Shown: positions 16,608-59,309 of the stretch, in pieces
Layout of the letters: each line of letters starts with the position of its first letter
How positions within the stretch are numbered: position 1 is the first letter of the stretch
Assembly: GCA_026419785.1 (NCBI GenBank)
Contig: JAODTK010000954.1
Span: forward strand, 62,001-126,000
Origin: Sclerodactyla briareus
Lineage: Eukaryota > Echinodermata > Holothuroidea > Dendrochirotida > Sclerodactylidae
Length of the DNA: 64,000 nt
Direction: 5' to 3'
Notes under the pieces: generated by a model
The model's database searches: none
What the model saw: only the letters and a program-made list of their open reading frames with translations
Told to the model about the DNA's origin: nothing
Made by a program: the position numbers and the translations under genes

Positions 16608-16822
16608 TCATATCAACCTCTCTGGGGGTGGCCACTTTAGGACATTGTCCATCTCAACCCTTGACCCAGTCATCTCCTGATTGCTGGGCTGATGTCCTGC
16701 CGTTGCCCGCTGCTTCCTTAATGTTGAAGAACAGAAAAGGATAAAGACCAATATCAGTAGCACCACTACCCCTCCTACGGCAGCACCAATGAGCACCCAG
16801 TTCGGCTCCTCAGGCTCAGGAG
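16608..16822 (-). CDS. Terminal exon of EGF-repeat membrane protein: transmembrane segment and cytoplasmic tail
   Basis: This is the last exon of the minus-strand EGF gene. It follows a good acceptor: a pyrimidine-rich tract with TTTTTCTGTG just before TAG. It enters in phase 1 and reads cleanly to a stop at 16,608-16,610. The split codon is followed by 70 residues. A short acidic, proline-rich stalk (PEPEEPNW) leads into a 22-residue hydrophobic segment starting VLIGAAVGGVVVLLIL. After it come a stop-transfer cluster with LRKQR and a ~40-residue tail ending WPPPERLI. This is the layout of a type I single-pass membrane protein, with the EGF array outside and a short tail inside. No tyrosine-based or kinase motif is visible in the tail. 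Upstream in the transcript is the micro-exon at 23.6 kb, whose phase-1 end joins in frame. Orthology is unknown, and a neighbouring gene's exon cannot be formally excluded. Confidence 0.75.
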
Positions 16823-17860
16823 CTACGAGCGCACAGAAAAAGAGATAAGAATAAAGGATAATTGTTTTTTTCAGTTTGTTTAGTGCTTTACCCCTCCCCT
16901 TATTGTCTCGCCGGAACTTGGTCAAGAGATGGTGACATAGTGATCCAGTTTTTTGTGTCTGTCTGCCTGTCCATTCGTATTTACGGTTCCGTAACCCTTA
17001 ACGGAAACCTCATGCTGAATTTGGTGTGGAGGTGTACAATGAGGAGTTGTCGCATCGCCTTTTCTTTCCAGAAGGCCATACTAATTGCATAAATTGAGAA
17101 TCTTAATGAAAACTGCCAGAAAGTTTGTGTACAGATTCTCTTGATTGGAAGATGCATTGGGGATGCAGTTCAGCATATATATAACAGCTATGAATTGTAG
17201 ATGAAACTTGATTAGGTTTCTGGCATTGTATGTGCTGATTAAGTAGTCTAATTTTCATAATTTAGGCTTCTTCTTTTTAACAGTGGTTGGTTTTTCACAA
17301 AACTTGACTGAAATGGTTTATCTCATCCCTATAAACTTTACAGAAGGGTTGAGGTTACCAAGGTCTTTCAATTTGACCAATTGGCATTTAGGTAATTGAT
17401 AACTTATGCAGCTTTTCAAAGTTGGTTGGGATTCCCATTGAACTTGGTGGAGATGGTTACACCTTTTATCTTGATCAATTAACAACAGTGGCAAGGTCAC
17501 TGGAGGTTTGTTATGTGAATAATTTGTAGTTATTTCTTTTGAGCATCTGGTTTTTTAAAAATGGGTGTGATAATGATCAAAAGAGTGCAGTTCGGGGCGT
17601 CAGTAGGGGTTCCTAGGATCCGTCTTGGTATTTTTCAAACAACATCAAGAAGAACCCAAGATCAGAAGGTCAAATGTCAAATCTTACAAAAATTGTGCCT
17701 ATTTTAGGAGTTTACAGGAGCCAAAAAAATAACCAGCAAAAAGCCAAAAGGCTTGCTAATTCCTTGACGGATCATGACTTCACATGTTACAAAATTCAGG
17801 ATCGGATCATGTAGTATAATAAGGGAGAATCACGAAGCTTGAAATTCATCATCCAGGTGA
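16823..17860 (-). other. Intron, unique-looking part
   Basis: Intronic sequence upstream of the terminal exon in transcript sense. It starts with the acceptor tract at 16,823-16,860. No other exon, RNA or tandem repeat was recognised. Confidence 0.45.
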
Positions 17861-18480
17861 GGTGTTCGAGGCATAACCAAATTTCAACCTGGACCTCAGA
17901 TGACCTTTGACCTGACTCCAAAAGGGATAATGGAGAACCCACATACCAAAGAGGAGATTCATCATTCCAGGTGGGGTCGAGTTATGGTTTTAACAAGCGA
18001 ACAATCGGCAAATTATCATTTTTCACACAATTTTCCTCCAAACTGACCTGGGTACACCCCTGTCCACGCAAGCATAACTAATCCCCTGTCCCCGACCAAT
18101 ACTACCATAACTGGACTCCCTGTCAACACCACACAATAGGGTTCCGTTACTCCCCATACGAGCTGTCATACCAAATTTCAACCTGATCAGATCATTCTGG
18201 ACAAGATTTTCAGACTTGACCTCAGATACCCTTTGACCTGACCCCAAAAAGCTGGGATCATGTAACCATCATGGGACCCACCCTATCTAGTTATGAGCGT
18301 TAATTTCATCAAGGTGGGGGTCGAGTATCCATATTTTAAGTTAAAATTGGCCAATTATCAATTTGTCACAATTTTCCATTTTCCCCCTGACTGACCCCTG
18401 GGTCTACACAATACGGAATAGGTTCCCATACTCCTCATGAGGTAGCTGCATACCAAATTTATGCATATTTCAAAGTTTGC
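17861..18480. repeat. Diverged ~310-bp satellite monomers
   Basis: About two monomers of the satellite family. Hallmarks are ATGACCTTTGACCTGAC (17,899), GGTGGGGTCGAGTTAT (17,977), AATAGGGTTCCGTTACTCC (18,136), CCTGATCAGATCATTCTGG (18,183) and GGTGGGGGTCGAGTATC (18,313). More diverged than the arrays at 2-5 kb and 39-42 kb. Confidence 0.8.
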
Positions 18481-18989
18481 CAGATTATCATGAAACTTGG
18501 AGGTATGGGAGCATCATTTGGAATCACCTTCAAAGTTGTGTAGCAGCCATTTTCTTCCCTTAAATAACAGACTATTTTTAGTCTGTAGTACTGCAAATTT
18601 TGATAAACTTTTGTCCCTACTAAATATACTTCGAATTTCCTAATTCCCTATCAACTCCCTTGTGTTTCCTCTACTGAATCCAAATTATTCCTCTATTCTG
18701 TCTATATCCCCCATACTGGGGTTTGCTTCCCATATCAGCCGGCAACCCCCCCCCCCCTTCCCATCCAATCGGTCCCCTACCCCACTTAAAAGGATCTCCA
18801 AATTGTAATGTCAAAAACACATTACGAATTACCATGTTTTTGGTCAACACATGTCCAGGTAATTTAATGTCACCACAATGGTCCTGTCACATCCCCTAAA
18901 CAATATGCTCATCCTCACCTAGATTCAACGACATGGACTAATATTGTTGATGACTATGCGCTGTCTCTCAACTATCATTCCAACCCAAG
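18481..18989. other. Intronic sequence between satellite and minisatellite
   Basis: Includes a C homopolymer at about 18,748-18,757. Nothing else recognised. Confidence 0.4.
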
Positions 18990-21900
18990 GAACTTTTGTT
19001 TTGACGGGTTATGCCTCTGTAGCCCAACTAGCATGAACCAATGGACCTGTTGTGTTTGAGTGTGCATGCTCAGTGCCTCAACTAGCTGGAACCGAAAGAC
19101 CCGTACTGTTTGGGTGCTATGCTCTTTGCCCTCAACTAGACTGAAGCAAGGGCCTGTGTGGTGTTGAGTTGTCCTATGCTCCTGTGTGCGTCAACTAGCA
19201 TTGAACCAAGGATCTGTCCGTTTGGGTGGCTATGCTCTGTCATTCAACCAGCATTGAACCAGGGACCTGTGTTGCGAATGGCTATGTTCTGCCACTCGAC
19301 TGACGTTGAAACCAGGAAACTTGTGTGTTGTGAGTGGCTATGCTCTGTCACTCAATTAGCATTGAACTGAGGACATGTGTTGTGAATGGCGATGTTCGGT
19401 CACCAGACTGGCATTGAACCTGGGCTGTGTGATTTGAGTGGCTATGCTCTGTCCCCTCAACCTGTATTGAACCAGGTATTTATCTGTGTTGTGAGGGCTA
19501 ATGTGCTGTCCCTCAACTAGCATGAACCAGAGACCGTGTATTGTGAGTGGCTATGCTCTGTCATTCAACTAGCATTGAACCAGGACCTGTGTATTGTGAG
19601 TGGCTATGCTCTGTCCCACAACTACCAAGGACCTGTGTATGTGAGTGGCTATGGGCTGTCCCTAACTAGCACTGAACTAGGGACCTTTGTATTGTGAGTG
19701 GCTATGCTCTGTCCCTCAACTACCAAGGACCTGTGTATTGTGAGTGGCTATGCTCTGTCACTCAACTAGCATTGAACCAGGGACATGTGTGTTTCAGTGG
19801 CTATGCTCTGTCATTCAACTAGCATTGAACCAGGGACATGTGTGTTTCAGTGGCTATGCTCTGTCACTCAACTAGCATTCAACCAGGGACCTATGTATTG
19901 TGAGTGGCAATGCTCTAGCTATCCTTCAACTAGCTTTGAACCAGGACTGTGTATTGTGAGTGGCTATGCTCTGTCCCACAACTACCAAGGACCTGTGTAT
20001 TGTGCTATAGCTAAACTTCAACTAGCTTTGAACCAGGACTGTGTATTGTGAGTGGCTATGCTCTGTCCCACAACTACCAAGGACCTGTGTATTGTGCTAT
20101 AGCTACCCCTCAACTAGCTTTGAACCAGGACGTGTATTGTGAGTGGCTATGCTCTGTCCCTCAACTACCAAGGACCTGTGTATTGTGAGTGGCTATGCTC
20201 TGTACCTCAACTAGCTTTGAACCAGGACATGTGTGTTTCAGTGGCTATGCTCTGTCATTCAACTAGCATTGAACCAGGGACATGTGTGTTTCAGTGGCTA
20301 TGCTCTGTCACTCAACTAGCATTCAACCAGGGACCTATGTATTGTATTCAACTAGCATTGAACCAAGGACCTGTATGTTGTGAGGTTGTTCTGTTTTTTT
20401 GCTCTGTGCCTCAACTAGCATTGAACCAGGACCTGTGTATTGTGAGTGGCTATGCTCTGTCACTCAACTAGCATTCCCTTTTGTATTGTGAGTGGCTATG
20501 CTCTGTCATTCAACTAGCATTGAACCAGGGACCTGCGTGTTGTGAGTGGTTATGCTTTGTCATTCAACTAGCATTCAACCAGGGACCTATGTATTGTGAG
20601 TGGCTATGCTCTGTGCCTCAACTAGCATTGAACCAAGGACCTGTGTGTTTGGGTGGCTATGCTCTGTGCCTCAACTAGCATTGAACCAGGGACCTATGTA
20701 TTGTGAGTGGCAATGCTCTAGCTATCCTTCAACTAGCTTTGAACCAGGACCTGTGTATTGTGAGTGGCTATGCTCTGTCATTCAACTAGCATTGAACCAG
20801 GGACATGTGTGTTTCAGTGGCTATGCTCTGTACCTCAACTAGCTTTGAACCAGGACGTGTATTGTGAGTGGCTATGCTCTGTGCCTCAACTAGCATTGAA
20901 CCAGGGACCTATGTATTGTGAGTGGCAATGCTCTAGCTATCCTTCAACTAGCTTTGAACCAGGACTGTGTATTGTGAGTGGCTATGCTCTGTCCCTCAAC
21001 TAGCATTCAACCAGGGACCTTTGTATTGTGAGTACAGGCTATGCTCTGTCCTTCAACTAGCATTCAACCAGGGACCTTTGTATTGTGAGTACAGGTTATG
21101 CTCTGTCCCCCAACTAGCATTCAACCAGGGACCTTTGTATTGTGAGTACAGGTTATGCTCTGTCCCCCAACTAGCATTCAACCAGGGACCTTTGTATTGT
21201 GAGTACAGGCTATGCTCTGTCCCTCAACTAGCATTCAACCAGGGGACAATGCCTCTAGCTATCCTTCAACTAGCCTTTGAACCGGACCTGTGTATTGTGA
21301 GTGGCTATGCTCTGTCCCTCAACTCGCATTCAACCAGGGACCTTTGTAATGTGAGTACAGGCTATGCTCTGTCCTTCAACTAGCATTCAACCAGGGACCT
21401 TTGTAATGTGAGTACAGGCTATGCTCTGTCCCCCAACTAGCATTCAACCAGGGACCTATGTATTGTGAGTGGCTATGCTCTGTCCCCCAACTAGCATTCA
21501 ACCAGGGACCTTTGTATTGTGAGTACAGGTTATGCTCTGTCCCTCAACTAGCATTCAACCAGACACCTCTGTATTGTGAGTACAGGCTATGCTCTGTCCT
21601 TCAACTAGCATTCAACCAGGGACCTATGTATTGTGAGTGGCAATGCTCTAGCTATCTTCAACTAGCTTTGAACCAGGACCTGTGTATTGTGAGTGGCTAT
21701 GCTCTGTCCCTCAACTAGCATTCAACCAGAGACCTTTGTATTGTGAGTACAGGCTATGCTCTGTCCTTCAACTAGCATTCAACCAGAGACCTTTGTATTG
21801 TGAGTACAGGTTATGCTCTGTCCCCCAACTAGCATTCAACCAGAGACCTTTGTATTGTGAGTACAGGTTATGCTCTGTCCCTCAACTAGCATTCAACCAG

Positions 21901-23230
21901 GGACCTTTGTAATGTGAGTACAGGCTATGCTCTGTCCCTCAACTAGCATTCAACCAGGGACCTTTGTAATGTGAGTACAGGCTATGCTCTGTCACTCAAC
22001 TAGCATTCAACCAGGGACCTTTGTATTGTGAGCACAGGCTATGGTATGCCCCTCAACTAGCATTCAACCAGGGACCTTTGTAATGTGAGTACAGGCTATG
22101 CTCTGTCCCTCAACTAGCATTCAACCAGGGACCTGTGTGTTTGGGTGGCTATGCTCTGTCCTTCAACTAGCATTGAACCAAGGACCTGTGTGTTTGGGTG
22201 GCTATGCTCTGTCCTTCAACTAGCATTGAACAAGGACCTGTGTGTTTGGGTGGCTATGCTCTGTCCTTCAACTAGCATTGAACCAGGGACATGTGTATTG
22301 TGAGTGGGTATGCTCTGTCCCTCAACTAATATTGAACCAGAAACCGGGATGTGAGAGGACTTGGGTTTGTCATCGATGGCTTTGAACCAGCAACTGGTGG
22401 GGTGTGGTGTGAGTGGCTATGCTCTGTCCCTCAACTAGCATTGGACCAAAGACCTTTGTATCGTGAATGGCTATGCTCTGTCCCTCAACTACCAAGGACC
22501 TGTGTGTTTGAACGGGTATGCTCTGTACCTCAACTACCAAGGACCTGTGTGTTTGGGTGGCTATGCTCTGTCCCACAACTACCAAGGACCTGTGTGTTTG
22601 GGTGGCTATGCTCTGTCCCACAACTACCAAGGACCTGTGTGTTTGAATGGGTATGCTCTGTACCTCAACTACCAAGGACCTGTGTGTTTAAATGGGTATG
22701 CTCTGTACCTCAACTACCAAGGACCTGTGTGTTTGAATGGGCTATGCTCTGTACCTCAACTACCAAGGACCTGTGTGTTTAAATGGGTATGCTCTGTACC
22801 TCAACTACCAAGGACCTGTGTGTTTGAATGGGTATGCTATGTACCTCAAATAGCAGGACCTGTGGTTTGAATGGGTATGATCTGTACCTCAACTACCAAG
22901 GACCTGTGTGTTTGAAGGGTATGCTCTGTACCTCAACTAACAAGGACCTGTGTGTTTCAAGGGGTATGCTCTGTACCTTAACTAGCAAGGAACTGTGTGT
23001 TTGGAAAAATGGGTATGCTTGACCTCAACTAGCAAGGACCTGTGTGTTTGGGTGGCTATGCTCTGTCCCACAACTACCAAGGACCTGTGTGTTTTAATGG
23101 GTATGCTCTGTTACCTCAACTAGCAAGGACCTGTGTGTTTGAGTGGCTATGCTCTGGTCCCTCAACTAGCATTCAATCAGGGACCTTCGTATTGTGAGTG
23201 ACCATGCTATGTCACCAACTCGCATTGAAC
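18990..23230 (+). repeat. 54/57/45-bp minisatellite array
   Basis: About 80 units in 4.2 kb, all built on GGCTATGCTCTGT followed by CAACTAGCATTGAACCAG and GGACCTGTGT. Three unit classes are seen: a 54-bp form (mainly 19.5-21.0 kb), a 57-bp form with a GAGTACAG insertion (mainly 21.0-22.1 kb) and a 45-bp form lacking most of the AGCATTGAACC segment and reading CAACTACCAAGGACC (22.48-23.15 kb). A marker variant with GGCAATGCTCTAGCTATC recurs near 19,902, 20,707, 20,922, 21,246 and 21,635, indicating higher-order turnover. One plus frame stays open because all unit lengths are multiples of three. It yields peptides like YCEWLCSVPQLALNQGP that have no signal peptide or family match. It lies in the intron between the micro-exon and the transmembrane exon, antisense to that gene. 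Confidence 0.95.
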
Positions 23231-23625
23231 AAAGGACAGTGTATTATGCTGGCTCTTTGCTCTGTGCCTATGCATTTGACTGGCATGAACCAGAACCCTT
23301 TATATTGTGCTCTGTCACTCACTTGGACTGGAATTGGACCAGGGACTTGTGAGGGTAGGCTCTGGACACTCCAGTGGAAAGAAGTTAATAAAATGACTTG
23401 GGGCGCGCGCGCGGGGGGGGGCGGTAGGGAAACTATTACCTGGTCACAAAGTTGTCAGTGTTAATTCAGTACATTCGCAATGAAAGTTCTCGCCTAGGGA
23501 ATGCACACCCCGTTCTAGCATGGGTTTGGTCACACGGAAGCATCATGCACAGAAAACCCTTGATACGGATAGGGACATTCACATTTGAAGCTTCATTATG
23601 TTCATGAAGGTCCAATTGTTCTTAC
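23231..23625 (-). other. Intron between minisatellite and micro-exon
   Basis: Degenerate minisatellite edges to about 23,370 and a GC/G-rich run at 23,402-23,425. No further exon seen. Confidence 0.45.
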
Positions 23626-23678
23626 CACATAGTGGGGTGATCGCACAGTCATCTATGTCATCGCACAGAAGCGGGACC
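23626..23678 (-). CDS. Micro-exon of EGF-repeat membrane protein
   Basis: A 53-nt exon on the minus strand, bounded by acceptor ...CTACTAG and donor GTAAGA, phase 1 at both ends. After a split glycine codon it encodes S-R-F-C, which closes the EGF module begun in the 31-kb exon. It then encodes DDIDDCAITPLC, the first two cysteines of a further calcium-binding-type EGF module, and ends one base into the next codon. A phase-1/1 exon must be a multiple of three; 53 plus the one base evidently missing in the TGTGC-GAT stretch gives 54. Spliced directly to the terminal exon it stays in frame, giving a two-cysteine stub before the stalk. Alternatively another small exon carrying the rest of this module lies unseen in the 6.8-kb intron that holds the minisatellite. 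Confidence 0.7.
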
Positions 23679-31192: not shown

Positions 31193-31409
31193 CTGTATCA
31201 GTGCAGTCACATGTGTAGCTGGCAACACCGTCCTGGCAGACCCCCCCGTTCGTGCACTCGTTCAGAACGCAGTCGTCTATGTGATCTCGCAGTTGGTGCC
31301 GTTGAAGCCCTCTAGACAAGTGCACACATAGGAAAAGTCAAAGTCCGTACAGTTCCCATTCAGGCAAAGGCCACTGCTGCAGTTGGCAGTTCAGTTTCGC
31401 AAAAATCAC
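31193..31409 (-). CDS. EGF-module exon of membrane protein
   Basis: Minus-strand exon with acceptor ...TTTGATAG and donor CAG/GTGAGG, phase 1 at both ends. It starts GDFC, closing the EGF module begun in the 44-kb exon. It next encodes one complete EGF module: CETELP, a Cys in an NCSSGLC context, NGNC, YVCTC and GFNGTNCE. It then encodes most of a calcium-binding-type module (IDDCVLNECTNGGVCQDG then YTCDCTDTG), whose last cysteine is in the 23.6-kb exon. The IDDC start and the hydroxylation-type Cys-x-Asp/Asn context fit cbEGF modules, which bind calcium between tandem repeats in extracellular proteins. Two frame breaks occur, one after GAACTGCC and one after GAGATC. Adding one base at each restores every cysteine and brings the length from 217 to 219, a multiple of three. 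Confidence 0.93.
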
Positions 31410-34720: not shown

Positions 34721-37440
34721 CTACCATTAGAATGAAGTAATTGTCTAGCTAACTATACATGTTGAGTTGAAGATGTAGTTTTAAACAACTCTGAGAGAGA
34801 ATTCCCACCCATTGAAATGCTATCGTAAAATTTGGTTGAACTGGTCCCACCGAATTCGCATATTTTATGCTGACATTTAGTCCGTTCATGAACCTGCCAT
34901 CTCGATTATATGCCAAAGTCAAACAACATCATTAGAGTTTGTATGGTCCTGGCATAATCTTGCTAAGAGCTATAAACAATAATCTATGGAATGAGCAAAT
35001 ATCATTTAATTATGGTGATGGTACCTTAATTCAGATTCGATCACCTACAACACTCTAAAATTATGATTAGATCACCTACTCCTAAATTTTGTTGCCATTA
35101 ATGTGATCAATCAGCTATAGCTGAAACCATACAACAACATGCCCATTATTTCAATGTGGTTGCTTTCCCGGTTCTTGCTATCGCGATGTGTCAGTGGACA
35201 TGTTCGTCTGGGAATGGTTTCACAATAACTCTTGGCAGTCGGCTGTAACAGTCCCATGAGCATGAATCTTTTGCTCCCCAGGTTCTGAAAAAGTGGTCGG
35301 ATCCTGGGGATTCACTGTTGTCTGTTGGATTGCACAAACCATGGTGGTCCCTGGAACAGGTTTTATGGTACAACAACCAATTACACACCCCTGCCTTGAT
35401 TCATTTGACCACTTCTTGAGAAGAGTAGGTGAGTTATCCAAGATCAAAATAACAGAATTCCTATTGAAGGCTTTAATTGCTTCCTGAATGTCGTTGAAAA
35501 GCTGTAATCAGCAAGTGAGATCAGAAGAAGCCTATGGGCAGAGAAATTGAATTATTGGTGAAATTGTGTTACACACTGATGGCTACTTAACCAGTAGTCT
35601 TTTTGTGTATGGTACCGAGATGGAATTATCTGCAGGTTTAGCTTCAAATTTAGCATTGTAGTTTCTGTTTTGAGTGTGTTCAAGCTATTATTCCTCCTCA
35701 TAACCATTAGACGTGGCTGTTGTGTGCAATAGCCAAGAGGTGGATAATACAGTGGTGGAGGCTGCACATTGGCAATGGGTGCAGCCAGTCATGTAAGAGG
35801 TGGCCGGAGCCCGCGGCAGCCCCCCGAAGGCCATGGCCATCGCTTTTGGTCAATGGCCTCTGAGCCCCAAAAGTTGACTTCTTCTCAAGGCCAGCTCTGA
35901 GTGGGAGCCAAACACTAGTTATGTTGGCCATTATATTATATACTATTCAAATTTTTCTCAAAGCATGGGGGTTTTTTCGTGGCTCCTGTGACAGAATTGT
36001 ACTTATATTAAGGCTACTGCACAGTTGCCTATCCAGCCTCAGATGGGATTATTGTTAGGGTATTTTTTCTATTGTACTTGATCCAACATTTTCAGAGTTT
36101 CAGAAGGGAGGGTAACTTTTCTCATATTCATACAGCATTAACACACAATACTTCTGGATAGGGAAGTGGGTTGGCAAGATTTTTCGGGGAAGGGTCAACT
36201 CATTTCCATATTGAGCATTGTTCTATATGAATCCTAAATGTATAGAGTGCCTAATCCACTTGCTCGAGGACAGTGGGATTGCTGCAGTTGCGAATTTTTC
36301 AATTTGCCACTGTATATTTTTCAAACCCACTCATTCTATTCCTTAATCTATATACTGTATGGCAATTGCACTTATTCCTTTCTGATTTTCATCCTATAAT
36401 TTTTTTCAAGGAGGGTGGGATAGGCAAATGATTTCTAATTAATACTCTAATGTCTCTGAGTTCATAATTACTGCCTTTTTTAGGGTTATTTTTTGTATAT
36501 ACGAGAGCCTAAGAGGCTACTCTGAAATTGACTCTTACTAAATTCAAAATTCTGAGGCTACGGCACACTTGCCTGTCCATGCGCCACAACATTGCAGTTA
36601 CTACTGCCGCATCTTGCAATAAAAACCTTGCATTCTGTCTTTAGGGGTGGAGGGTGGAGGTGATTTGCAAGTTTTTTTTTTTGTTTTGTTCTCTTATATT
36701 TGCTTTTATTATTCAGATAGTTGTAATATTCATATGAGCATAATTCCATCTAAATCACATTCTTAAGTTCACAAAATTGCACATTTAGGGTGGGGGGTCA
36801 TCCTCTTTTGATGGATTTGCCTACTCTCAATAGCATCTCCCTTCCCTTTGCACATGCATTTCCTAAAAACTACAATTATCTCAGGCTGACCACACTAAAT
36901 GGTTTGCAGTATGCAAGGGAAGTTGAAACTCATCACTCAAATACTCCTCAGTGGGCTACCGAGCAATTCCCAAGGGCTTTGTTTATAGCATTGGGGTGCC
37001 TTGTTGTTATAATTCTGAAAACATGTTCTCCAAACTGGTAGTTTCCGTTCAAAACAGTACTGACAGTTGAGTGAATGGATATTGCATAAATGCCTTAATT
37101 TTGGACATCATAGTAGTGTGTGGGGAAATTTGTGAAGGGGGGGGGGGGGTTTGCAGCTAATGGGAAGTAACCCATTATGGGGGAATAGAGAGTAATCAAG
37201 GAAATTCAATTTATATGGGGTTACTAGTGGATTCAGTTTTTTTTCCAAATTTGTAATTTGGAATCATTGATGAAGAGTGATTGGGGGGGGGGGGGGGGGG
37301 GGGGGTGGGGGTGGGGGGGGGGGGGGGGGGGGGAGTGGGGGGGGGGGTTGGATTGGCAGGCTGAATGGGCGCCCCCAGTATGGGAAATGAAGAGATAAAG
37401 GAAATTTGAATTGAAATTCAAATTTGGGGATTAGCACGGA
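34721..37440 (-). other. Intron
   Basis: No exon or RNA gene recognised. Contains homopolymer G tracts at 37,137-37,149 and 37,284-37,346 (the latter about 60 bases with few interruptions), and a T run at 36,672-36,684. Coding frames here are short and unconvincing. Confidence 0.45.
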
Positions 37441-38711: not shown

Positions 38712-41700
38712 AACGATAGGGTTCCTGTAACTCCCCATGATGACGAAGCTATACACCAATTTTGAACCAGAAAGCCAAAAGGCTTAGTGTGCCTTGACTG
38801 CTGTGTCTGGCAACCCATAGGCAGACATAACGTGACAAATTTCTATCTTTACCAACCAACTAATAGGGTATGTACCCTTGACAAGAAAGCTACAAATAAA
38901 TTTCAAGGTTTTCAGACTTTGAACTCTGTTAACCTTAGGTGACCTGACCTCCGCCTGCCCCATAACAATAGGGTTCATGTACTCATCATGGGGAATCCCA
39001 AAAACCAAGTATGATCCTCATTCACCCCGCCCTTTAAACCAGAAACAATAGGGTTCCTGTCTCTCGCCATAAGGAAGATACGCCCCCGTAATGTCAACTG
39101 ACAGACCCAACGTTCTGGACTTATTCGTGTTTAACAAGGTGTCGACTTTGTTGACCTCTGGTGACCTCAGATGAGACCTCTGACCCACCCCAAAACCATA
39201 GGTTCATGTACTCATCATGGGGAACACACATACCAGATGAGCTTCACAATCCCTCCCTGATGGGTTCGAGTTATCTTGTTTACCAGCCAAAATTGGCCAA
39301 AATATCAAATTTCACAAATGGTTCGTATTTTCGACCAAATTAACCCCGACCTGAACCAAAAACAAAGGGTTCCTGTACTCCCCATAAGAAATCTCTATAC
39401 ACTGATTTCACAACTGATCGGCCACAATTATGGACTTATCGTGTTCCAAGGTTCTCAGACTTTGACTTGGGGTGACCTCAGATGACCTCTGACCTGACCC
39501 CAAAACAATAGGGTTCATGTTTAACTCATCCCTGGGGAACAAACACATACCAAGTATGAGCTTCACATCATCCAGGTGGGGTCCGAGTTATCTTGTTTAC
39601 AATCCAAAATTGGCCAAAAACAATTTTTCACAAATGTTCTATTTTCGACCAAAATTCACCCCGACCTGAACCAAAAAACATAGGGGTCACGTCTCCCATA
39701 AGAAGCCTATACACCTGATTTCAACTTAATCGAAACCAACAATTATGGATTGAGCGTGTTTACAAGGTTCTCAGACTTTGACTTCTGGACCTTCAGATGA
39801 ACTCTGAACCTGACCCCAAAACAATAGGGTTATGTAACTCATCATGGGGAACACATACAAGTATGAAGTTCATCCATCCAGGGGGGCGAGTTGAGTATCG
39901 TGGTTACAAGCCAAAATTGGCCAAAAATATCAATATCTATTTTTCGACCAAAATTCACCCGACTGAACCCAAAAAACAATAGGGTCACTTTACTCCATGA
40001 GAAGAAGTCTTTGAAACCTAATTCCAACATTGATAAGACAAACAATATGTGACTTATCGTGTTTTTACCAAGGTTTTCAGACTTGATCTGGTGACCTCAG
40101 ATTGCCCTCTGACCCGGACCCAAACAATAGGGTCAGTACTCATCATGGGGCAACCACCATCCAAGTAGAGCTGTATCCATCCACGGTGGGGTCGAGTTAT
40201 CGTGTTTTTACAAGCCAAAATTGGCCAAAAATCAAATAATCTATTTTCGCCAAAATTCATTCCGACCTGAACTAAAAACACTGAGGTTTCCGTACTCCCC
40301 ATACGAAAGCTTAACCTAATTTTCACTTGATCAGGACCAACATTATGGACTATCGATGTTTACATGTTTTCGGACTTGACTCTGGTGACCTCAGTGAGAC
40401 CTCTGACCTGACTCCCAAAACAATAGGTTCATGCTCATCATGGGGAACCAACAATACCAAGATATGAGCTTTATCCATCCGTGTGGGTCGAGGTATCGTG
40501 TTTACAAGCCAAAATGGCCAAAATATCAAATTTTCAACAAATTTTTCATTGTCGACCAAAATACCCCCCACCTGACCAGAAAACATAGGGTTCATGACTC
40601 ACATCAAGAAAGCTATACACATGATTCGACTTGATCAGACCACTTTTGGGGACTTATCGTGTTTACAAGGTTTTCAGACTTGACCTTGGGTGACCTAGCT
40701 ACTCTTGACCGGACCCCAAAAAACAATAGGGTTCATGTACTCATCATGGGGACAACAACATACCAAGTATGAGCTTCATCCATCGGGTGGGCTGTAGAGT
40801 TACGTGGTTTACAAGCCAAAATTGGCCCCAAGATATCAAATTTTCACAAATTTTCTATTGTTTTTTATAATTTAATAAAATTAAAAAAACGAAAAACAAT
40901 AGGGTTCCTGTACTCCCCATAAGAAAGCTATAAACCCTGATTTCGACTTATCCGACACCAACCTTCTGATTATCGTTTTCAAGGTTTTCAGACTTTGACC
41001 TCTGGTGACCGCAGATAAAGACCCTCTGACCTGACCCCAAACAATAGGGTCATGTACTCCATGGGGAACATACATAATGAGTATGAGCTTCATCACACCA
41101 TCCTCCGGGTGGGGTCGAGTTAATCGGTTTACAAGCCAAAAATTGGCAATATATCAAATTTTTTTCCACAAATTTTCTATTTTTTGACCAAAATTCACTC
41201 CCGACCTGAACCCAAAACAATAGGGTTCCTGTACTCCCCATAAGAAACTATACACCAATTTCCAACTTGATCCGACCAAACGTAACAACCATTCTGGCTT
41301 ATCGTGTTTTTACAAGGTTTTCAGAACTTTGACTCTGGTGCCATCAGATAACCTCTGACCTGACCCGCAAACGATAGGGTTCATGGTACTCATCATGGGG
41401 AACACACTCCAGTATGAGCTTCATCCATCCAGGTGGGGTCATTTATCGTGTTTACAATCGAAATTGGACAAAATATTTGCTTTTCACAAATGTTCTATTT
41501 TTCAGACCAAAATTCACACCCGTCCTGAACCAAAAACAATAGGGTTCCTGTCTCCCCATAATAAAGCAGACACCCATTTCAACTGATCCGACCAACCATT
41601 CTGGACTTATCTTGTTTACTAGGTTTTCAGCCTTTGACCTCTTGTGACCTCAGAATGACCTCTGACTCTGACCCAAAACAATAGGGTTCATGTACTCATC

Positions 41701-42110
41701 AATGGGGACACACATACCAAGTATGAGCCTTACCTACCCAGACCTGATCAAGTTATCGTGTTTCCAACTGGTCTTCGACACACACACATACCACACACAC
41801 ACCCCCACGAACAGACACACACACACACCACACACACACACCCCACACACCACACACAAACCACACACCCACACACACACACAACGTGACGCATAGATTG
41901 CTTGACTTCGTCAAGGAACAAAAACACGATAACTCCATGGAGTTAGCGGTTTACAGCGGTTGTAATTACTTCGACCTTCGCGTGACATCAGATGGCATCT
42001 GACTGACCAAAAACAAAAGGGTTCTCATGAACTCAACATGGGGAACATACTATCATTGAGTATGAGCTCATTATCAGATGGGGTCAAGCGACCATGTGCC
42101 CCCGCTTAAT
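38712..42110. repeat. ~310-bp satellite array, main block
   Basis: About ten head-to-tail monomers. The anchor CAATAGGGTTCATGTACTC (often with a base missing) occurs near 38,962, 39,200, 39,507, 39,824, 40,127, 40,420, 40,727, 41,042, 41,372, 41,685 and, diverged, 42,013. Every monomer repeats the two half-units each carrying AATAGGGTTC and TTATCGTGTTTACAAG. Just before the anchor lies a cluster of TGACCT motifs. Most copies differ by single missing bases. No coding content; short frames inside are by-products. Located in the intron between the 44- and 31-kb EGF exons. Confidence 0.93.
41778..41930. repeat. CA microsatellite and terminal hairpin module
   Basis: CA-rich tract at 41,778-41,885 followed by GCATAGATTGCTTGACTTCG and TCAAGGAACAAAAAC. 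The module matches that at 5,835-5,925 and, less well, 50,785-50,875. A further partial monomer follows it to about 42,100. Confidence 0.8.
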
Positions 42111-43957: not shown

Positions 43958-44195
43958 CTGCATGTCCGGTGTGCAGTTACACATTGCCCAGTGCGTTCCG
44001 CTAATGCAGGTAGCGTATTCTGACAGGCCAGGCCCCCACCAGTCGATTTATTCATTGCTGCAGTCGGTTGCCGTTGAAACCAATGTAGCAATTGCCGTAG
44101 CACCTTGATGGCGTCGCTCTCAAACCATGATGCAGGTCCCAATTATTCGTAGCACTCCATGTCGGCACAGGGGCCCACATACTGGCACTTATCTC
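43958..44195 (-). CDS. EGF-module exon of membrane protein
   Basis: Minus-strand exon with acceptor ...CATCCACAG and donor CAG/GTCCGT. It enters in phase 1 with a split codon then DKCQYVGPCADMECYE, the start of an EGF module. After a frame break come GTCIMV and, in another frame, CYGNCYIGFNGN. A second module follows: CSNE, then ACQN, ATCISGTHWAMCNC and TPGHAG if one G is restored before ACATGCAG. Joined in phase 1 to the 31-kb exon this gives C-N-C then eight residues then the C of GDFC, the normal spacing between the fifth and sixth EGF cysteines. At least three frame breaks are present, so the exact cysteine count of the first module is uncertain. The donor, +4 C rather than the usual A, is weak but forced by the phase. 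Confidence 0.78.
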
Positions 44196-44540: not shown

Positions 44541-45380
44541 TAATAGGGCATTCTACTGGAACGTCGGTTGATTGCAACAAAATTATTGAATTTCAGAGTA
44601 AGGACAATCGGGACATGACACCTAAATTACGAACAGAGTGGGAGAAGCAATAATCGCACCACCAGTATTCAAATCACATGGCGGGGTAGGATACCTCCTA
44701 TAGAACTTGACATGAGAAATATATCACTTCTGTTTTGTCATCGTTTAGCGCTAACATATCATTCGTCCCTGGACGGCCTATTACTCCAAGTCCCTGGTGA
44801 AATATAATGTCTTTGACAGGGGTGGTATAAAGAATGGATAGAACTGACTGAGCCCTGCAGACCAACAATTAAAGTGGTATCGCCTTGACATGATCGACCT
44901 GATGATTAATGCGTGTTCTATTCTCAAAATAGGAAATGAACCAGTCAAACACATTTTCAGAGATGCCAAAATGATGGCGCAATCTGTGTAAAAGTATGCC
45001 ATCGTCGAACCTGTCAAAGGCAGCATTTAAATCTAGCAAAATCAGGAAGACCTCATCATTCTGTCCAAAAAACGCATGAAACATTGTGTACTCTAAGAAG
45101 TGCCGTTTCAGTGCTACAACCCTCTGAAGCCGACTGACAACTGGCATAAAGCCCGTGGTGTATGACGTATGAATTCCGTTGCCTGAACATGGATTTCCTC
45201 CATCTTTGGCACAGGAAAATGCATGGAAAAGTTAGATATGGGCTGATAATTTTTCAAGTTATCATTGTCCAGATCACACTTTTTCAACAAGGGACAGACA
45301 GTAGCCTGTTTACATTGCTCAGGAATAAGGCCCGACCTAAAGAAAGAAAGAATTGCTTATCTCATTGATGATGGGTATAC
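44541..45380 (-). mobile_element. L2/CR1-like LINE fragment, RT core
   Basis: The minus strand reads through the RT core. Near 45,140-45,090 in shifted frames is CSTETALLRV. Near 45,050 comes VFLILLDLNAAFD, then GILLHRLRHHFGI and FDWFISYFENRT (to 44,910). After a break YTTPVKDIIF lies near 44,800. LNDDKTEVIYFS is at 44,755-44,720 and SVRNLGVM near 44,625. The first catalytic aspartate block (AAFD) is intact and the YADD block is not visible. A 5'- and 3'-truncated dead copy, related in type to the one at 3.1-4.4 kb and in the same orientation as the EGF gene. Confidence 0.88.
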
Positions 45381-47175: not shown

Positions 47176-47625
47176 TGACAGAATGCATACAAATTCCCCT
47201 GACTTTCCAAGTAATGGAAAAATTTATGAACAAAAAAATCAGTCTTGTATGATCTGTCGCAGTCCTCTTGGAGATGAGGATCAGCCCAGAACAGCTTCAG
47301 ACTGGGGGATTGTTAGTTTGAATTTCCTATGAGAATGCTAATAAGCAATGCTAAGTAGGGAACTGAGAGGAATTCAAAGAATACACTGTTACTGAATCTC
47401 TAAGAGTGATTGGCCAGGTGTCTATAAACCGTAACAGTAATATTGGTAAAGATTTCTCCCCAACCACCAACAACCTTTGATTCACATGTCTTGCTACTTT
47501 TCGATTGCCGGATCGTCATACATCAAACGTGCATCAATAAAAGTGCGCTCCATGCAAACATTTTACGGCTACAAATTGTTTCGAATATAACAACCTAATA
47601 GATCGAGTTCCATGCATACAATGTT
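47176..47625 (-). other. Intron
   Basis: Nothing recognised besides a short frame with no family resemblance. Confidence 0.4.
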
Positions 47626-50780: not shown

Positions 50781-50880
50781 ATGTCACATACAAACATACA
50801 TACTACATACTACAATACATGCACTGTCAGGACTGCATAGATTCCCTGTGCCTTCATTAAGGAATCAAAAAGCAAGCTAA
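50781..50880. repeat. ACATAC-rich tract and terminal hairpin module
   Basis: An ACATAC-rich tract is followed by GCATAGATTCCCTGTGCC and TTCATTAAGGAATCAAAAA. GATTCC and GGAATC again form the stem. It is a third copy of the end module seen at 5.8 and 41.8 kb, without a satellite array directly upstream. Confidence 0.7.
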
Positions 50881-52749
50881 GATGATGATGAACTGATTGA
50901 TGTGATAGCTTGACTGCTGATGAGCAGCTATTCATCAAATTTCAAAATATGAGAAGAATTATGAGTTCAGTTTAGCCCTCATTAACATGAGATGCGAGCA
51001 TTGGCTTCTCTCTCTCATCTATATACTGTAGCTGTATTTTTTTTAGAAGTGGAGTTCCCTGATGCAACGAGGCACTCACTACATTAACAATACCGGTACA
51101 AATATTTTTCATTATATATCTGTAAAGTGCAGTAGTTTTCTGATCTACCATGTGTTTACAGAATCATCAATCTCCCTTGAAAACGTGAATCTTAGAGAAA
51201 ACAGCTGGATTATGATGGATGACCGAGGTGATAAGCTGGTAATTATGGCAGCTATGATCAGATTAGATTCCATCAGCCAGGAAGAACTACTGTTTGTTTT
51301 AGACACTCATTTAGAATGAAGATACCGCATGGCTTCTCACGTTTAAAGCTTGGTAATTACTATGTCGGCCTGTAAGCTTGGTCCTCGGCACCGAAGAAAA
51401 ATAACATTATACTGGAGAATTAATCAGCAATGACTCAAACTGTAACGACATTTCACCCCTTTTCTGCAAGAATAACCCCCATTACTGATATCTTGAGTTA
51501 GGGAACAAAACGTTGACCTTGCAGCCATCAGAAATGCTTCTACATGATGCTATAAACTTGTTTGTAAGTACAAGAGACTTGTAACACCTTGAAGAAACTA
51601 TTCTTCTCTCTGAAATTCATTACACATGTCAATACACACATTTTCTGACACAAAGAGGTATTGATTGGTTGTTTGTCATCTGTCACAATTTTTGTCTCGC
51701 CTGGAACACAGTCCAGGAAAGACTTAGTGGGCACTATGTTGTGTGTTGTACTGTATGTATACCTATATATATATGTGTGTGTGCGTGGAGGGGTCTCATT
51801 TTCCTTGATAGAGGATTTCACAACATGCAGATGATTTTGATGAAATTTTGTATGTAGTATCGGAGCTGGGTGTACCAATCTGATTAGAGTTTAGGCATAA
51901 GAACAGAGTCATTAATTAAGATGGATAATTAGCCTATTTTGTGTAATTTATTCTTTTGAGCTTTTAGCGAGATAGGACGAACTCTGGGTCTATGGCAATT
52001 TGGATGGCACACAGTCAGTAGCAGCATCTGAGGTAGATGCACTGTTGATTTCAGGGAAAACATGCTTTGAAAGTTTCTAATTTTCATATTTCCTGCGAGT
52101 TGGTCAGATTTTTTCTAGAGAAACTTCTGGTGAATAAGTTACTTTTTGTCCAACTTTTAACATGAAAGATACAGAGTCACTAGAGGTCATTCAATATGTC
52201 TCCTTTGTATAATTTAGGGCCTAATCTCAAAGTGGATTTCCATGAACTTGGTAGGTATGGAATAAAGTGGCAATTATAATGAAAAAAAGGGCCATCCCCT
52301 TTCTCTACCCTAGGACAGAATGCAGTGGGGATCACCGAGAGAGCAGTCATAGACGATCCTTAGTCATGTTCGTAACTGATCTTGTTACCCAGATGTTGAT
52401 GACTGGAGCATTTGCAGCCCATTAATCCTAACGTGTTCCATGAATACTGTGGAGCCAGGCTATGGACTGCATGGAGGATAAGGAGCAGAGCCTTGAATTT
52501 TAGAATACTGCGAAGTTTTGTATGGCAGCCAGTTTTCTGTGGGCATATAACGTCGGCGCTTTATCCGCCTGCACATGTCCAGTTCTAACTATCTATCCTT
52601 CTATCTATTTATCTCCGTCTGTAAAAACTTCTGGTACTTGCCACCAAATGTTTGTGCTTAATGCATCTCGACCAGACTGGTACAATGTTTATGACTGCTG
52701 GGTCATCCTTGATCACCTGAAGGGTCCAAGTCCAAATATCATTACGGGC
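50881..52749 (-). other. Intron
   Basis: No exon recognised. At 51,760-51,870 is an inverted copy of the repeat stretch at 30,808-30,905, next to a TATATATGTGTGTG tract. Confidence 0.45.
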
Positions 52750-53160
52750 TAATAAATGGAAAACTGCATACAGCTACCCTAACACATTTTAGGTGCACAG
52801 TGCTGATATTCGGTTCCCATATGATGGTCAAACCGCATTTCTTGTGTAGTAATTCAGGAATTTTTTATCCAGGTCCCACTTGGGTCCGATTTTTGAAATT
52901 TCCACATAAAAACATGGTATTGAAATGCATCTCCCCCCACAAGCTTCAATTGATTTTCTTCAGTGACATGTAATTTGTCCCTCGGGTAGAGGAATCAAAG
53001 CGTTTAAAAGTTTATTGCGCAACAGCTAGATTTTTCCGGCGGCAGCTGCACCCCCAAAACCATGATATCCCCGGACACTCCAGCTTTGGCGGAGATATAT
53101 GACATTAGTACACATTACCTCACCAGCATAGCTGGTTTGAGCTGAAAACCACTGATTGTG
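52750..53160. mobile_element. Composite repeat, inverted interior with plus-strand hairpin end
   Basis: 52,790-53,000 reads the subrepeat backwards: GGTGCACAGTGCTGAT, AATTCAGGAATTTTTTATCC, TCCCACTTGGGTCC and GCATCTCCCCCCACAAGC are reverse complements of interior phrases. The hairpin at 53,119-53,147 (CCAGCATAGCTGG then TTTGAGCTGAAA) is in the usual direction. The copy is therefore rearranged. Confidence 0.6.
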
Positions 53161-53430
53161 CAAGCAGGCAGACATTTAGTGGCTCGCCTTCTTCAAAAAG
53201 CTGCTCCCCATTGCATGAGAATATGCAGATATGTTTCTTTCTTATATCTTATATGTTTCAAATATGTTCTTTCTGAAGAAGGGAAGTACATACCAATGCT
53301 TCGTGGTCAGAAACATTTCTCACAAAAATAATTCTTGCACTTTGTGACAGGAAGAGCACAAGCCACTGCTTCTTTTTGTCATCAAAAAAATAGATAAAAA
53401 AAATCTGAAATAATCTGTAATAAAGATCAA
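53161..53430 (-). other. Intronic spacer before minisatellite
   Basis: AT-rich, no recognised content. Confidence 0.4.
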
Positions 53431-56400
53431 TTTCTAAGAATTGTGGAGTGCCACACACACCCACCCTGCCCACGCCCCCAAACATGACACTGACATATGT
53501 ACCTGTAGGTGCCAGTGGAGTGGCCACACAACACCCACCCTGTCCATGCCCCTGAGTAGGACACTGACAGTGTCCTGTGGTGCCAGTGATGTGCCCAACA
53601 GCCGCCACCCTGCCCACGCCCCCGAAGCATGACACTGATATGTGCCTGTAGGTGGCCTATGGAGTGGCCACACCACACCCACCTGCCATGGCCCCCAAGC
53701 ATGACCCTTACATATTGCCTGTAGGTGCCACGGAGTGTCCACACAACCCCCACCCTACCAATGCCCCCAGCATGACACTGCACAGTGCCTGTAGTGCCCG
53801 TTGGAGTGGCCACACACACCCACCCTGCCCACGACCCCGAGCATGGACACTGACCATGTGCCGTGTAGGGTGCCCAGTGGAGTGGCCACACAACAAACCC
53901 CACCCTGTCCACCTCCCCCGAGTATGACACTGACATATGTGCCTGTAGGTGCCGTGGAGTTGCCACCACACCCACCTGACCATGCCCCAAGCAGCCATGA
54001 CCTGACATAATGTGCTGTAGGTGCCCAGTGGAGTGGCCACACACCACACCCTGTCCTGCCCCTGAGTATACACTGACATATTTGCCTGTAGGTGCCAGTG
54101 ATGTGGCCACAACAGCACCACCCTGCCCACGCCCGCCCCGAGCATGACACTGACATATGTTGCCTGTAGGTGCCATGGAGTGGCCACACAACACCCACCC
54201 CTGCCATGCCCCAAGCATGACACTGACATATGTGCCTGTATGTGGCCAGCGGAGTGGCCCACAACACCCCCCCCAACAATGCCCCCAAGCTGACACTGAC
54301 CATGTGCCTGTAGGTGCCAGTGGAGTGGCCACACAACACCCACCCTGCCCACTACCCCGAGCATGACACTGAACACTGTGCCTGTAGGTGCCATGGAGTG
54401 GCCACACAACGCCCACCCTTTCCTCCACGCCCCGGAGTATGCCCTGACATATTGCCTGTTATGTGCCAGTGGAGTGTCCACACAACACCCCCCCTGACCA
54501 TGCACCCGAGCATGACACTGACAGATGTGTCCTGTAGGTGCCAGTGGAGTGGCCCACAACACCACCCTGTCCATGGTTCCCCTGAGTATGACACGGACAT
54601 ATGTGCCTGTAGGTCGCCATTGTGTGGCCATACAACAGCACCACGCCTGCCACGCCCCCGAGCATGACACTGACATATGTGCCTGTAGTGCCAGTGAGTG
54701 GCCACACAACACCCCCCCTGCCAACCCCCCAAACATGACACTGACATATGTGCCTGTATTATGTGCCCGCGGAGTGGCACACAACACCCACCCTACCAAT
54801 GCCCCCAAGCATGACACTGGCACATGTGCCTGAGGTGCCAGTGGAGTGGCCAACACACACCCACCCTGTGCCCACGACCCCCATGACATGACACATGTGC
54901 CTGGAGGGTGCCAGTGGAGTGGCCACCAACGCCACACCTGTTCCACGCCACCCGGAGTATGACCCTGCATAGTGCCTGTATGTGTCAGTGAGTGGCCACA
55001 CAACACCCCACCCCACCCTGACCATGCCCCCGGTAATTTGACACATTGACACTGACTATGTGCCTTAGGGGCCAGTTGAGGGGCACACACAACACCCCCA
55101 CCCTGCCAAGCAACCCAAGCATGACACTGACATACTGATGCTGTCGGTGCCAGTGAAGGGGCCACCAACACCCACCCTGCCCACAGACCCCGACCATGAC
55201 ACTGACATATGGTCCTGAGGTCCAGTGAGTGCCACACAAAGCCCACCCCTGTCCAATGCCCTGAGTATGACACTGACCACATGGCCTGTAGTTGCCCAGT
55301 GGAGTGGCCACAACACCCCACCCCCTCCCATGCCCCCGAGCCCTGACACTGACATATTGTGCCTGTGGGCCAGTGGAGTGGCCCACAACACCCACCCCGC
55401 CAATGCCCCCAAGCATGACACTGACATATGTGCCTGTAGGTGCCGTGGAGTGGCCACACAACACCCACCCTGCCAATGCCCCCCAAGATGACCTGCCTAT
55501 TTGCCTGTAGGTGCATGAAGTGGCCCACACATACAGCCCCCCCCCCTGCCATGTTTCCCGAGCATGACACGACATATGGCCTGTAGGTGCCAGTGGAGTG
55601 GCCACACAACACCCCCGCTGCCCACCACCCTGAGCATGACACGACATATGTGCTGTAGGTGCCAGGGAAGGGCCACACAACAACCACCTGCCCCACGACA
55701 CCCGAGCATGACACTGACATATGTGCCTCAGGTCCAGTGGAGTGGCCACACAACACCCACCCCTGCCATGCCCCAAGCATGACACGGACATATGTGCCTG
55801 TAGGTGCCAGTGGAGTGGGCCACCAACACCCACCCTGCCCACAACCCTGAAGTCTCATGAGACACGACCTATGTTGGCCTGTAGTGCCAGTGAAGTGGCC
55901 ACACAACACCCACCCTGCCCATGCTCCCAGCATGACACTGACATCTTGTGCCTGTAGGTGCCAGTGGTTGCCACACAACACCGCACCCTTCCCACACCCT
56001 GAGCATGACACTGACATATGTGCCTGTAGTGCCAGTGGAAGTGAGCACACAACAACCACCCTGCCCACGACCCCGAAGCATGACACTGACAGTATGTGCC
56101 TGCAGGTGCCAGTGGATTGGCCACACAACACCCACCCCTGCCAAGCCCCCAAGCCTGACACTGACATATGTTCCTGTAGGTGCCATGGAGTGGCCACAAC
56201 ACCCACCCTGCCCACACCCTGAGGCATGACACTGACATATTGTGGCCTGTAGTCCAGTGAAAGTGGCCACACAACCCACCCTGCCCCCACCCAGGCATGA
56301 ACACTGTACATCTGTGCCTGCATGGCCAGTGGAGTGGCCACACACCACCCCACATTCCTTCTGGTCCCTGCCAATGCCCCAATGCATGACACTGACACAT

Positions 56401-57775
56401 GTGGGCCTGCGGTAGTGTGCCATTGCCTCGTCTTGGAGTGCCACAACACGCCCACCCTGTTCCATGGCCCCTGAGTATGACACTGACATATGTGCCTGTA
56501 GGTGCCATTGGAAGTGGCCACACAACCCCCCCTGACCATGCCCCCGACATACACTGACTATGTGCCTGTTAGGGCCAGTGGAGTGGCCACACAAACAACA
56601 CCCCCCCTGCCAATGCCCCCAAGCATGACACTGACTATGTGCCGTAGGTGCCAGTGGAGTGGCCACACAACACCCACCCTGCCCACACCCCGCGCATGAC
56701 CCTGACATATGTGCCTGTAGGTGCCAGTGGAGTGGCCACCCACCCCCCCTGTCCATGCCGAACCTGATAATGACACTGACATATGTGCCTGTAGTTGCCA
56801 GTGGAGGGCCACACAACACCACCCCGCCCATGCCCCCGAGCATGACACTGACAATGTGCCTTTAGGTTCCGTGGAGTGGCCACACAACACCCACCCTGCC
56901 AATGCCCCCAAACATGACACTGACATATGTGCCTGTAGGTGCCAGGAGTGGCCACACACACCCAATCCCTGCTAGGCCCCCCAAGCATGACACGCATATT
57001 TGCCTGTAGTGTGCAGTGGAGTGGCCACACAACACACACCCTGCCCATGCTCCCGAGCAGACACTGTACATATGTGCCTGTAGGTGCCAGTGGAGTGGCC
57101 ACCAACCCCCCCTGCCCCATCTACCCCGCGCATAGACACGACTATGTGCCGTAGTTGCCAGTGTGAGTGGCCACACAACCCCCACCCTTGCCCATGCCCC
57201 CATGACACTGACAATGTGTCTGTAGGTGCCAGTGGAGTGGCCACACAACACCACCCTGCCCACGACCCCGCCATGACACTGAAATGTGCCTGTAGGTGCC
57301 AGTGGAGTGGCCACACAACACCACCCTGCCCACGACCCCGAGCAGGCACTGACATATGTGCCTGTAGTGCCAGTGGAGTGCCACACAACACCCACCCCGC
57401 CCATGCCCCCGAGCATGACACTGACATATGTGCCTATAGTGCCAGTGAGTGGCCACACAACCCCACCCTGCCCACGACCCCGAGCATGACACTGACATAT
57501 GTGCCTGTAGGTGCCAGTGAAGTTGCACACAACACCCACCCTGCCCATGCCCCCTAGCATGAACCTGACTATGTGTCTGTAGGTCCAGTGGAGTGGCCAC
57601 ACAACAACCACCCTGCCCACGACCCCATATGACTGGGACATATGTCCTGTAGGTGCCACGTGAGTGGCCACACAACGCCCACCCTGCCCATGGGCCCTCG
57701 AGCATCGGTAGTTGACTTGGGCACAAGGGATATGGGTGTGCCTGTAGGTGCCAGCGTGAGGTCTTCGAATCATCC
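53431..57775. repeat. 74-bp minisatellite array
   Basis: About 58-60 head-to-tail units. The consensus holds AGCATGACACTGACATATG, TGCCTGTAGGTGCCAG, TGGAGTGGCCACACAAC and ACCCACCCTGCCCACG. Most differences between copies are single missing bases. The plus strand is C-rich and the minus strand G-rich. The long minus-strand frames here (up to 948 residues, 56,554-53,708) have no start context, change frame with each unit and consist only of translated repeat; they are not genes. The array ends at 57,775 in unique sequence and lies in the intron between the 59- and 44-kb EGF exons. Confidence 0.96.
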
Positions 57776-58988
57776 ATTTGACTGATCATCAATTACAAAA
57801 CTTGTATGACCCACCTTTGTCCTGGGTTTTATACAGCCGCAACCTGTCTACAAGTTTGAAACTGAGCATTGATAGAACCCTTGTTCATGTGGAAAAATCT
57901 TAAATTATGAGCAGTTCTCATTGATAACAGAATTCATCCAGACACTAGAGGTTTAACCATGCTGCCCTTGGAAAGTTTGCCATGCCACATATGCAAAATT
58001 AAGTTCAAAAACGTTTCAACTTCTGCGTGCAGGGTTTTTCAGGCAGTCAGATCACTATGAACTGTATGACAATAGTCTTTATTGGAGAAACAAATCAATA
58101 GGGATTCGTTTAAACCAAGAAAGAAATGGACAAAAGACCCAGACGTTTTTTGTTCTTCTTTTGATTTTTTTTTAACTATGTCATCATCATTCTTTTTTGA
58201 TTGTAATAATATCAAAACCACACCCATGGCCGTGCTTACTGTTCATAGCAAGAACTATTCAGTTTTTTCAGACCTGTGTTTACCTATATGAACGCTGTCT
58301 ATTCCAATGCCTCACTGAGAATTTAAAATCAGAAAGCAGTTTGGTGAGGACAACTTCTTGCCATATACATCAGCATTCCTTTGCCTTAGCTTGGAATCCA
58401 AATAAGGCACACAATTTACAAAGAAATGTTGGTCATGTTTACACACAGATCCAATAGGAGAAGTGTCAATCTGAGTGGGAGGTGAGGGAGGGGGGGGGGG
58501 GGGGGGGGGGGGGTTGAAAATAAAATGAAATTTCCAGCCAGTCTAGGTAGACCCAATATTTTTGGAGCCCTTCACTAGTATGGGGCTGTAAGGGTTCTCC
58601 ATTCTCTGTGAAGATCCACACAATGAGCAACTAGAAGATTTTAATTAATTAAAGTTGAACCCAATGCAGAAACCACTGTCAGTTGACAAGCAGAAATTTA
58701 GTGATCAGTGTTCAATTGGGTGAGGAAGGTTGCACAACACCAGGGGTAGCACCTGACCTATTACCACACTGTAGTTTAACAGCATTATCGAAACCGAACT
58801 CACTTCACAGGGAGACAAAACTATTTACAAACGTAATCATGGATCAATAAAGCCCAGTTAGTACACTGCTCCATACCACAGATATAATAACAGTTACATG
58901 GAGCTAGGATGTCAAGCTATTTGTACAAAACACTGTCGAAAGCATTAATGACATTTAAAGTAACATGTAACCTTTGACAAACTCAGGG
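57776..58988 (-). other. Intron downstream of the 59-kb exon
   Basis: No exon recognised. A G homopolymer of about 25 bases at 58,491-58,513 is the only clear feature. Confidence 0.45.
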
Positions 58989-59309
58989 CAGTGAGCAGAT
59001 TCCAATGGTGCGGTCATCGTCCTCAATGCAGGTGCTGTTATTCTGGCAGGATGTCACAATATGTACAATTGGACCCCCATCATGTTTGGCCCCCTGGAAA
59101 CCCTCCTCCACGGCAACTAAAGGCTTGTCGCCTTATTGGCATTAACCGTTCCATTTAAGCATGGTCAGATCCAGGGGTAAACTCGCAGTTTTTGCAAAAA
59201 GTCAGGCCGGCATTCGCATCGATGACCCTTTAGGTTTTCACATTGTCCCGTCATTGAGGCAGAGACGTGCTTGGGTGCATTCGGTAATGTCGGCTCCACA
59301 TCGATTCCC
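58989..59309 (-). CDS. EGF-module exon of membrane protein, most upstream exon seen
   Basis: Minus-strand exon following acceptor ...CCCTTTACCAG. It begins GNRCGADITECTQARLCLND, closing one EGF module (RC) and opening the next. It continues GT, then C-ENLKGHRCECRPDF after a frame break, then CEF...PGSDHACLNGT. Further frame breaks lead to an EGFQG-like turn and finally SCQNNSTCIEDDDRTIGICS, the first cysteines of another module. About three modules are represented. The donor side is unclear: GTTTGTC at about 58,985 is the best candidate, so the left boundary may be off by tens of bases. The entry phase is 1 if one G in the GGGG run is extra. Such domains are extracellular. Earlier exons, with the signal peptide, are not visible and should lie beyond 64 kb or be too decayed to see. 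Confidence 0.75.

Follow-up and report, generated by a model that had tools for sequence, protein, structure and literature searches.

A stretch of 64,000 nucleotides of Sclerodactyla briareus DNA (contig JAODTK010000954.1 of assembly GCA_026419785.1, positions 62,001 to 126,000 of the forward strand; hereafter the window) carries on its minus strand what, from its sequence, is very likely the 3' part of a crumbs (CRB) homologue. Five minus-strand exons, numbered 1 to 5 in transcript order within the window (GC content 43.4%, CpG observed/expected ratio 0.45), are real and very probably all part of one gene. The assignment to crumbs was made because the last exon encodes a tail that matches Crumbs and ends in ERLI, and because helix and tail share this exon in the same way as in exon 12 of human CRB1. 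An earlier note on this DNA had proposed a single type I membrane protein gene with an EGF array over approximately 43 kb, which is supported; the minus-strand location of the five exons and their order along the transcript likewise agree with the description given there.

The product of exon 5 comprises 70 amino acids plus a split codon and contains no net frame break. Its translation retrieves Protein crumbs of Drosophila from PDB (4wsi, 4yl8) with an E value of 3.8e-7, the other 11 matches listed having E values of at least 0.28, and the tail is identical to that of Drosophila Crumbs at 24 of 40 positions with one gap. The reversed sequence, which served as a control, retrieved no Crumbs from PDB and gave a single weak match, to erbB-2 (E 1.2). 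Counted from the first Arg past the helix, the tail extends over 36 residues and is followed by the stop codon. The fly Crumbs tail is given as 37 residues ending in ERLI (PMC3564977), and ERLI together with a tail of less than 40 residues are described as signatures of the family (PMC3564977, PMC5968619). The short tail ending in PPPERLI, whose pairing with the EGF array had previously been regarded as not nameable, can hence be identified by its PDB match as a Crumbs tail, and an unknown protein family was rejected on the same match. An EGF array combined with an ERLI tail is the usual Crumbs architecture. As such, the gene resembles Drosophila Crumbs as a type I membrane protein with an EGF array, a short tail, an EMDNVLK segment and the terminal ERLI, and differs from it in the FERM-binding region of the tail, where one residue fewer is present and the tyrosine is absent, and in that LamG domains were not seen in the window.

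A similar picture emerges from the comparison with human CRB1, which has 12 exons (PMC5380682), the last of them carrying the transmembrane and intracellular parts (PMC8657784, PMC5380682). By arithmetic from the end of exon 11 (c.4005) and the length of the protein (1406 amino acids), this exon encodes approximately 71 amino acids, close to the length of the exon 5 product, and in both genes the EGF array lies upstream of an exon that holds helix and tail. Frame breaks in the sequence set the gene described here apart from CRB1.

Table 1. Exons of the putative crumbs homologue and elements of its last exon (positions within the window)
Feature	Position	Strand	Content or basis
Exon 1	58972..59309	minus	End of an upstream EGF, EGF 1, EGF 2 (poorly read), most of EGF 3; frame broken several times
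Exon 2	43958..44195	minus	Last cysteine of EGF 3, EGF 4, most of EGF 5; frame broken several times
Exon 3	31193..31409	minus	End of EGF 5, EGF 6, most of EGF 7; frame broken twice
Exon 4	23440..23678	minus	End of EGF 7, EGF 8, EGF 9; most likely donor CAG/GTAATAG
Exon 5 (last)	16608..16822	minus	Juxtamembrane stretch, helix and cytoplasmic Crumbs tail up to and including the stop codon; fully open
Transmembrane helix	16731..16799	minus	Single hydrophobic helix, W to C, approximately 23 residues, judged by eye from the translation
FERM-binding region RATAGHQPS	16683..16709	minus	Translation and alignment to the fly tail
C-terminal ERLI, PDZ-binding motif	16611..16622	minus	Translation ending PPPERLI-stop

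The ectodomain was read with an EGF profile that was made from 19 EGF sequences and aligned to both strands of the window with frame changes permitted; in 60 one-strand dinucleotide shuffles of the window, which served as control, the maxima had a mean of 24.0 bits and a highest value of 30.9 bits. Minus-strand matches at 31384 (53.8 bits), 31280 (51.5), 59291 (37.0) and 23659 (33.7) exceed the best shuffle. Those at 44028 (29.1 bits), 23537 (25.5), 59048 (22.9) and 44179 (20.5) lie inside the shuffle range and were accepted only because they are located within these exons. On the plus strand, the top match among those listed (at least 18.5 bits) reaches 24.4 bits. A match at 56240 that also exceeds the shuffles (32.7 bits) was taken as an artefact, as it sits in a GC-rich minisatellite. 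Read in this frame-tolerant way, the four exons encode approximately nine EGF modules, with exon 3 being the strongest. When the read-through was typed out as a peptide, exons 3 and 4 scored above the curated Pfam cut-offs for EGF and hEGF and exons 1 and 2 fell short. Exon 2 shows the weakest EGF evidence of the four and therefore rests mainly on its position and its cysteine spacing. Among the 262 non-repeat open reading frames (ORFs) of at least 58 amino acids in the window, the 120 longest were searched against Pfam at an E value of 0.01, which returned EGF (one member, E 0.00012), hEGF (one member), a weak DUF7937 (one member, E 0.0075) and nothing else. The start of exon 1 reads in phase 0 and carries the final cysteine of a preceding EGF, and the gene therefore extends upstream of 59.3 kb; on the minus strand between 59.3 and 64 kb, the frame-tolerant profile scan gave no EGF match of at least 18.5 bits.

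EGF repeats also occur in other receptors, and against PDB the typed EGF peptide is closest to Notch1 (E 3.4e-33) and Delta-like 1 (E 2.4e-31), as expected of such repeats, with none of the matches named Crumbs among 60 of the 61 rows. That the gene encodes a Notch, a Delta or another EGF receptor instead of a Crumbs is nevertheless hardly credible, as a tail of this length that ends in ERLI and finds Crumbs in PDB argues against it. Notch and Delta tails are long, and that of Notch is a large cytoplasmic part in which RAM and ankyrin repeats are found; no cytoplasmic part of this size was found here, the stop codon coming 36 residues into the tail.

The joins between the EGF exons also speak for the Crumbs reading. 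The joins of exons 1 and 2, 2 and 3, and 3 and 4 unite the cysteines of EGF 3, EGF 5 and EGF 7, respectively, and 7 or 8 residues then separate the fifth cysteine from the sixth when frame changes are used. The completion of EGF modules at the 44/31 and 31/23.6 kb joins, as previously proposed, is hence borne out when the exons are read with frame changes, and the 59/44 kb join, for which no boundary had been given, completes an EGF in the same manner. The donor of exon 1 at 58,972 (AAAG/GTTACA, the slash marking the exon end) is weak and agrees with the consensus at 6 of 9 positions by hand count. Of the proposal that all junctions with clear boundaries are in phase 1, only a part stands: exons 1 and 2 read 1-1, but the donor of exon 2 at 43,958 (CAG/GTCCGT) reads 0 against an acceptor phase of 1, the phase 1 donor of exon 3 meets an acceptor at 23,678 that can be read as 1 or 2, and at the last junction donor and acceptor are both in phase 1 provided that the frame of exon 4 is kept. 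As the aligner preferred two frame breaks at the end of exon 4, which result in a donor phase of 0, the phase at 23,440 is ambiguous as well.

The end of exon 4 had previously been drawn at a donor at 23,626, joined to 16,822. This proved to be wrong, since an EGF would then have no more than two cysteines; an EGF match (23659-23549) crosses 23,626 and a further EGF starts from 23537, on which grounds this donor was rejected. Exon 4 is approximately 190 nucleotides longer and reaches to about 23,440. Most likely, as far as the sequence can tell, GTAAGA at 23,626 is coding sequence and the real donor is CAG/GTAATAG at 23,440. The two sites agree with the donor consensus almost equally well (6 and 7 of 9 positions), and 23,440 was chosen over 23,626 because the EGF content decides and not the donor consensus.

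Unlike all the others, the resulting 23.4/16.8 kb join has no module shared across it. Since, in addition, the donor phase of exon 4 is unsettled and a stop codon stands in its kept frame where the last EGF cysteine is expected, one could imagine two genes, namely an upstream EGF gene and a separate short CRB3-like gene with its last exon at 16.8 kb. Human CRB3 and C. elegans CRB-3 would provide a precedent, as they possess the conserved Crumbs tail and are without an EGF array (PMC5380682, PMC4359734); here, in contrast, the last exon is preceded by EGF exons of the same strand. From our point of view, two genes are very unlikely, as strand and order are shared, phase 1 stands on either side if the frame of exon 4 is kept, and the content of exon 5 matches exon 12 of human CRB1 (PMC8657784). 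No other gene was seen between the exons either, which agrees with the earlier note as far as the 120 of 262 ORFs scanned and the broken frames allow.

Several observations weigh against the assignment of the five exons to an animal crumbs gene. In Pfam, exon 5 gave 11 families at E values up to 1, none of which reached its own cut-off and none of which is named Crumbs. A LamG domain was absent from the 120 longest of the 262 ORFs, the gene leaving the window at its 5' side. The last intron of human CRB1 is in phase 0 (by arithmetic from c.4005), whereas the acceptor of exon 5 is in phase 1. The typed read-through of exon 1 matches Pfam EGF with an E value of 0.0011, under the cut-off, and its second half gave no match; that of exon 2 matches hEGF only, with an E value of 0.026 that is short of the cut-off. 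The stop codon in exon 4, three of the simulation results of the next paragraph (stops, score and number of breaks) and the absence of the FERM-binding tyrosine belong to the same side.

Exons 1 to 4 are not open as they stand, a point absent from the earlier note, and contain approximately 24 frame breaks in 1,032 nucleotides (22, 24 and 32 at three penalty settings). Together with the two in-frame stops, this could mean that the gene is a decayed crumbs pseudogene in which the breaks are real and from which no protein is made, a possibility that shares the naming as crumbs with the reading preferred here. Two simulations of indel noise, two of decay and one set of shuffled exons were used for comparison (means of 12 runs each; the simulated exons held two modules each and were shorter in total than the real ones). 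Cys occupies 47 of the 48 cysteine columns, compared with 43.2/45.2 and 42.6/44.4 under noise, 34.9/42.9 and 28.9/39.5 under decay and 28.2/34.2 in shuffled exons, a comparison that is biased for the window because the aligner rewards Cys. The number of in-frame stops is nearer to decay (2.6 in both simulations) than to noise (0.7 and 0.5), with 2.1 in shuffled exons. The alignment score of 261.9 is also nearer to decay (318.9 and 174.3) than to noise (472.3 and 437.3), but here the window is at a disadvantage, since the profile had been trained on the very sequences that served as ancestors in the simulations. The 24 frame breaks, in turn, are more than any mutated simulation has on average (13.2-19.2), and more than the mean of the shuffled exons (19.9).

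The conserved cysteines, which lie above the decay simulations, and the wholly open exon 5 with its tail and ERLI speak against a pseudogene, and a retrocopy does not come into question because introns are present. Repeats elsewhere in the window show many single-base gaps, too: between copies that are at least 78% identical over at least 150 columns, there are 2.2-6.4 gaps compared with 7.6-14.3 mismatches per 100 columns, which is a high share of gaps, and 52-93% of them are single bases. On this mixed test, it is our judgement that sequence errors are clearly more likely than gene decay as the source of the frame breaks, and the pseudogene remains unlikely. A predominance of insertions among the breaks, which occurs in some long reads, was considered and dropped, as short and extra readings numbered 15/9, 21/11 and 14/8 at three settings. 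With so many small frame breaks, gene calls in this region need care.

Tandem repeats are numerous in the window. The intron between exons 1 and 2 contains a minisatellite (53443-57690) of approximately 57 copies of a 71-base unit with 75% matches and 13% indels, which yields long spurious minus-strand ORFs of up to 949 amino acids. Another minisatellite, with units of approximately 45-57 bases, occupies 18942-23168 in the last intron and begins approximately 270 bases past the donor of exon 4. A satellite with units of approximately 300-440 bases occurs at three places (39116-41728, 1977-3329 and approximately 4400-5800), and its copies at 2-3.3 kb show 2.2 gaps per 100 among each other, fewer than the 4.6-6.4 against the other two places. 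A run of approximately 65 bases at 37283-37347 is mostly G. In the intron at 45 kb, a minus-strand ORF (44872-45231) resembles a fragment of a LINE-type (long interspersed element) reverse transcriptase, judging by a motif that we take to be typical of these enzymes; it gave no Pfam match and only weak matches in PDB, among them telomerase reverse transcriptase (E 0.09). Seven larger ORFs were without a Pfam match, and scans of the window with Rfam (gathering threshold) and for tRNA genes returned no matches.

If the family is a guide, the Crumbs protein would reside in the apical membrane of epithelia with the EGF array outside. Its ERLI would bind the PDZ domain of Stardust/PALS1, and Par-6, and in this way build the apical Crumbs complex, while the part of the tail near the membrane would bind FERM proteins such as Moesin and Yurt; these roles of ERLI and of the FERM-binding motif are described for the Crumbs family (PMC3564977, PMC5968619, PMC5380682). 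The FERM-binding motif of Crumbs is given as RxxxGxYxPS (PMC5968619), of which RATAGHQPS keeps the R, G, P and S and lacks the conserved Y, being one residue short. The missing tyrosine and residue may reflect a real loss or an error in indel-rich sequence. The glass sponge Crumbs also deviates from the motif but retains the Y (PMC5968619), and among the papers listed in our literature search there was no report of a loss of this tyrosine, which is no proof that none exists. It is rather doubtful that the tail is correct as read, that is, that an animal Crumbs which keeps ERLI is one residue short and has no tyrosine in its FERM-binding motif. Among 169 pattern matches in viral contigs, no relative of the tail was confirmed.

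Among the papers listed, the searches turned up nothing direct on Crumbs or its gene structure in invertebrate deuterostomes; in a broader context, the authors of one study take their data to suggest that a Crumbs with a classical tail exists in all living animals except ctenophores (PMC5968619). The gene is an ordinary, well-known animal gene, and naming it crumbs accounts for the EGF array and the tail together, with a corrected exon map. If the true tail is as read, the link to Stardust/PALS1 would be kept, and that to Moesin, Yurt and the Hippo pathway would be weakened or lost.

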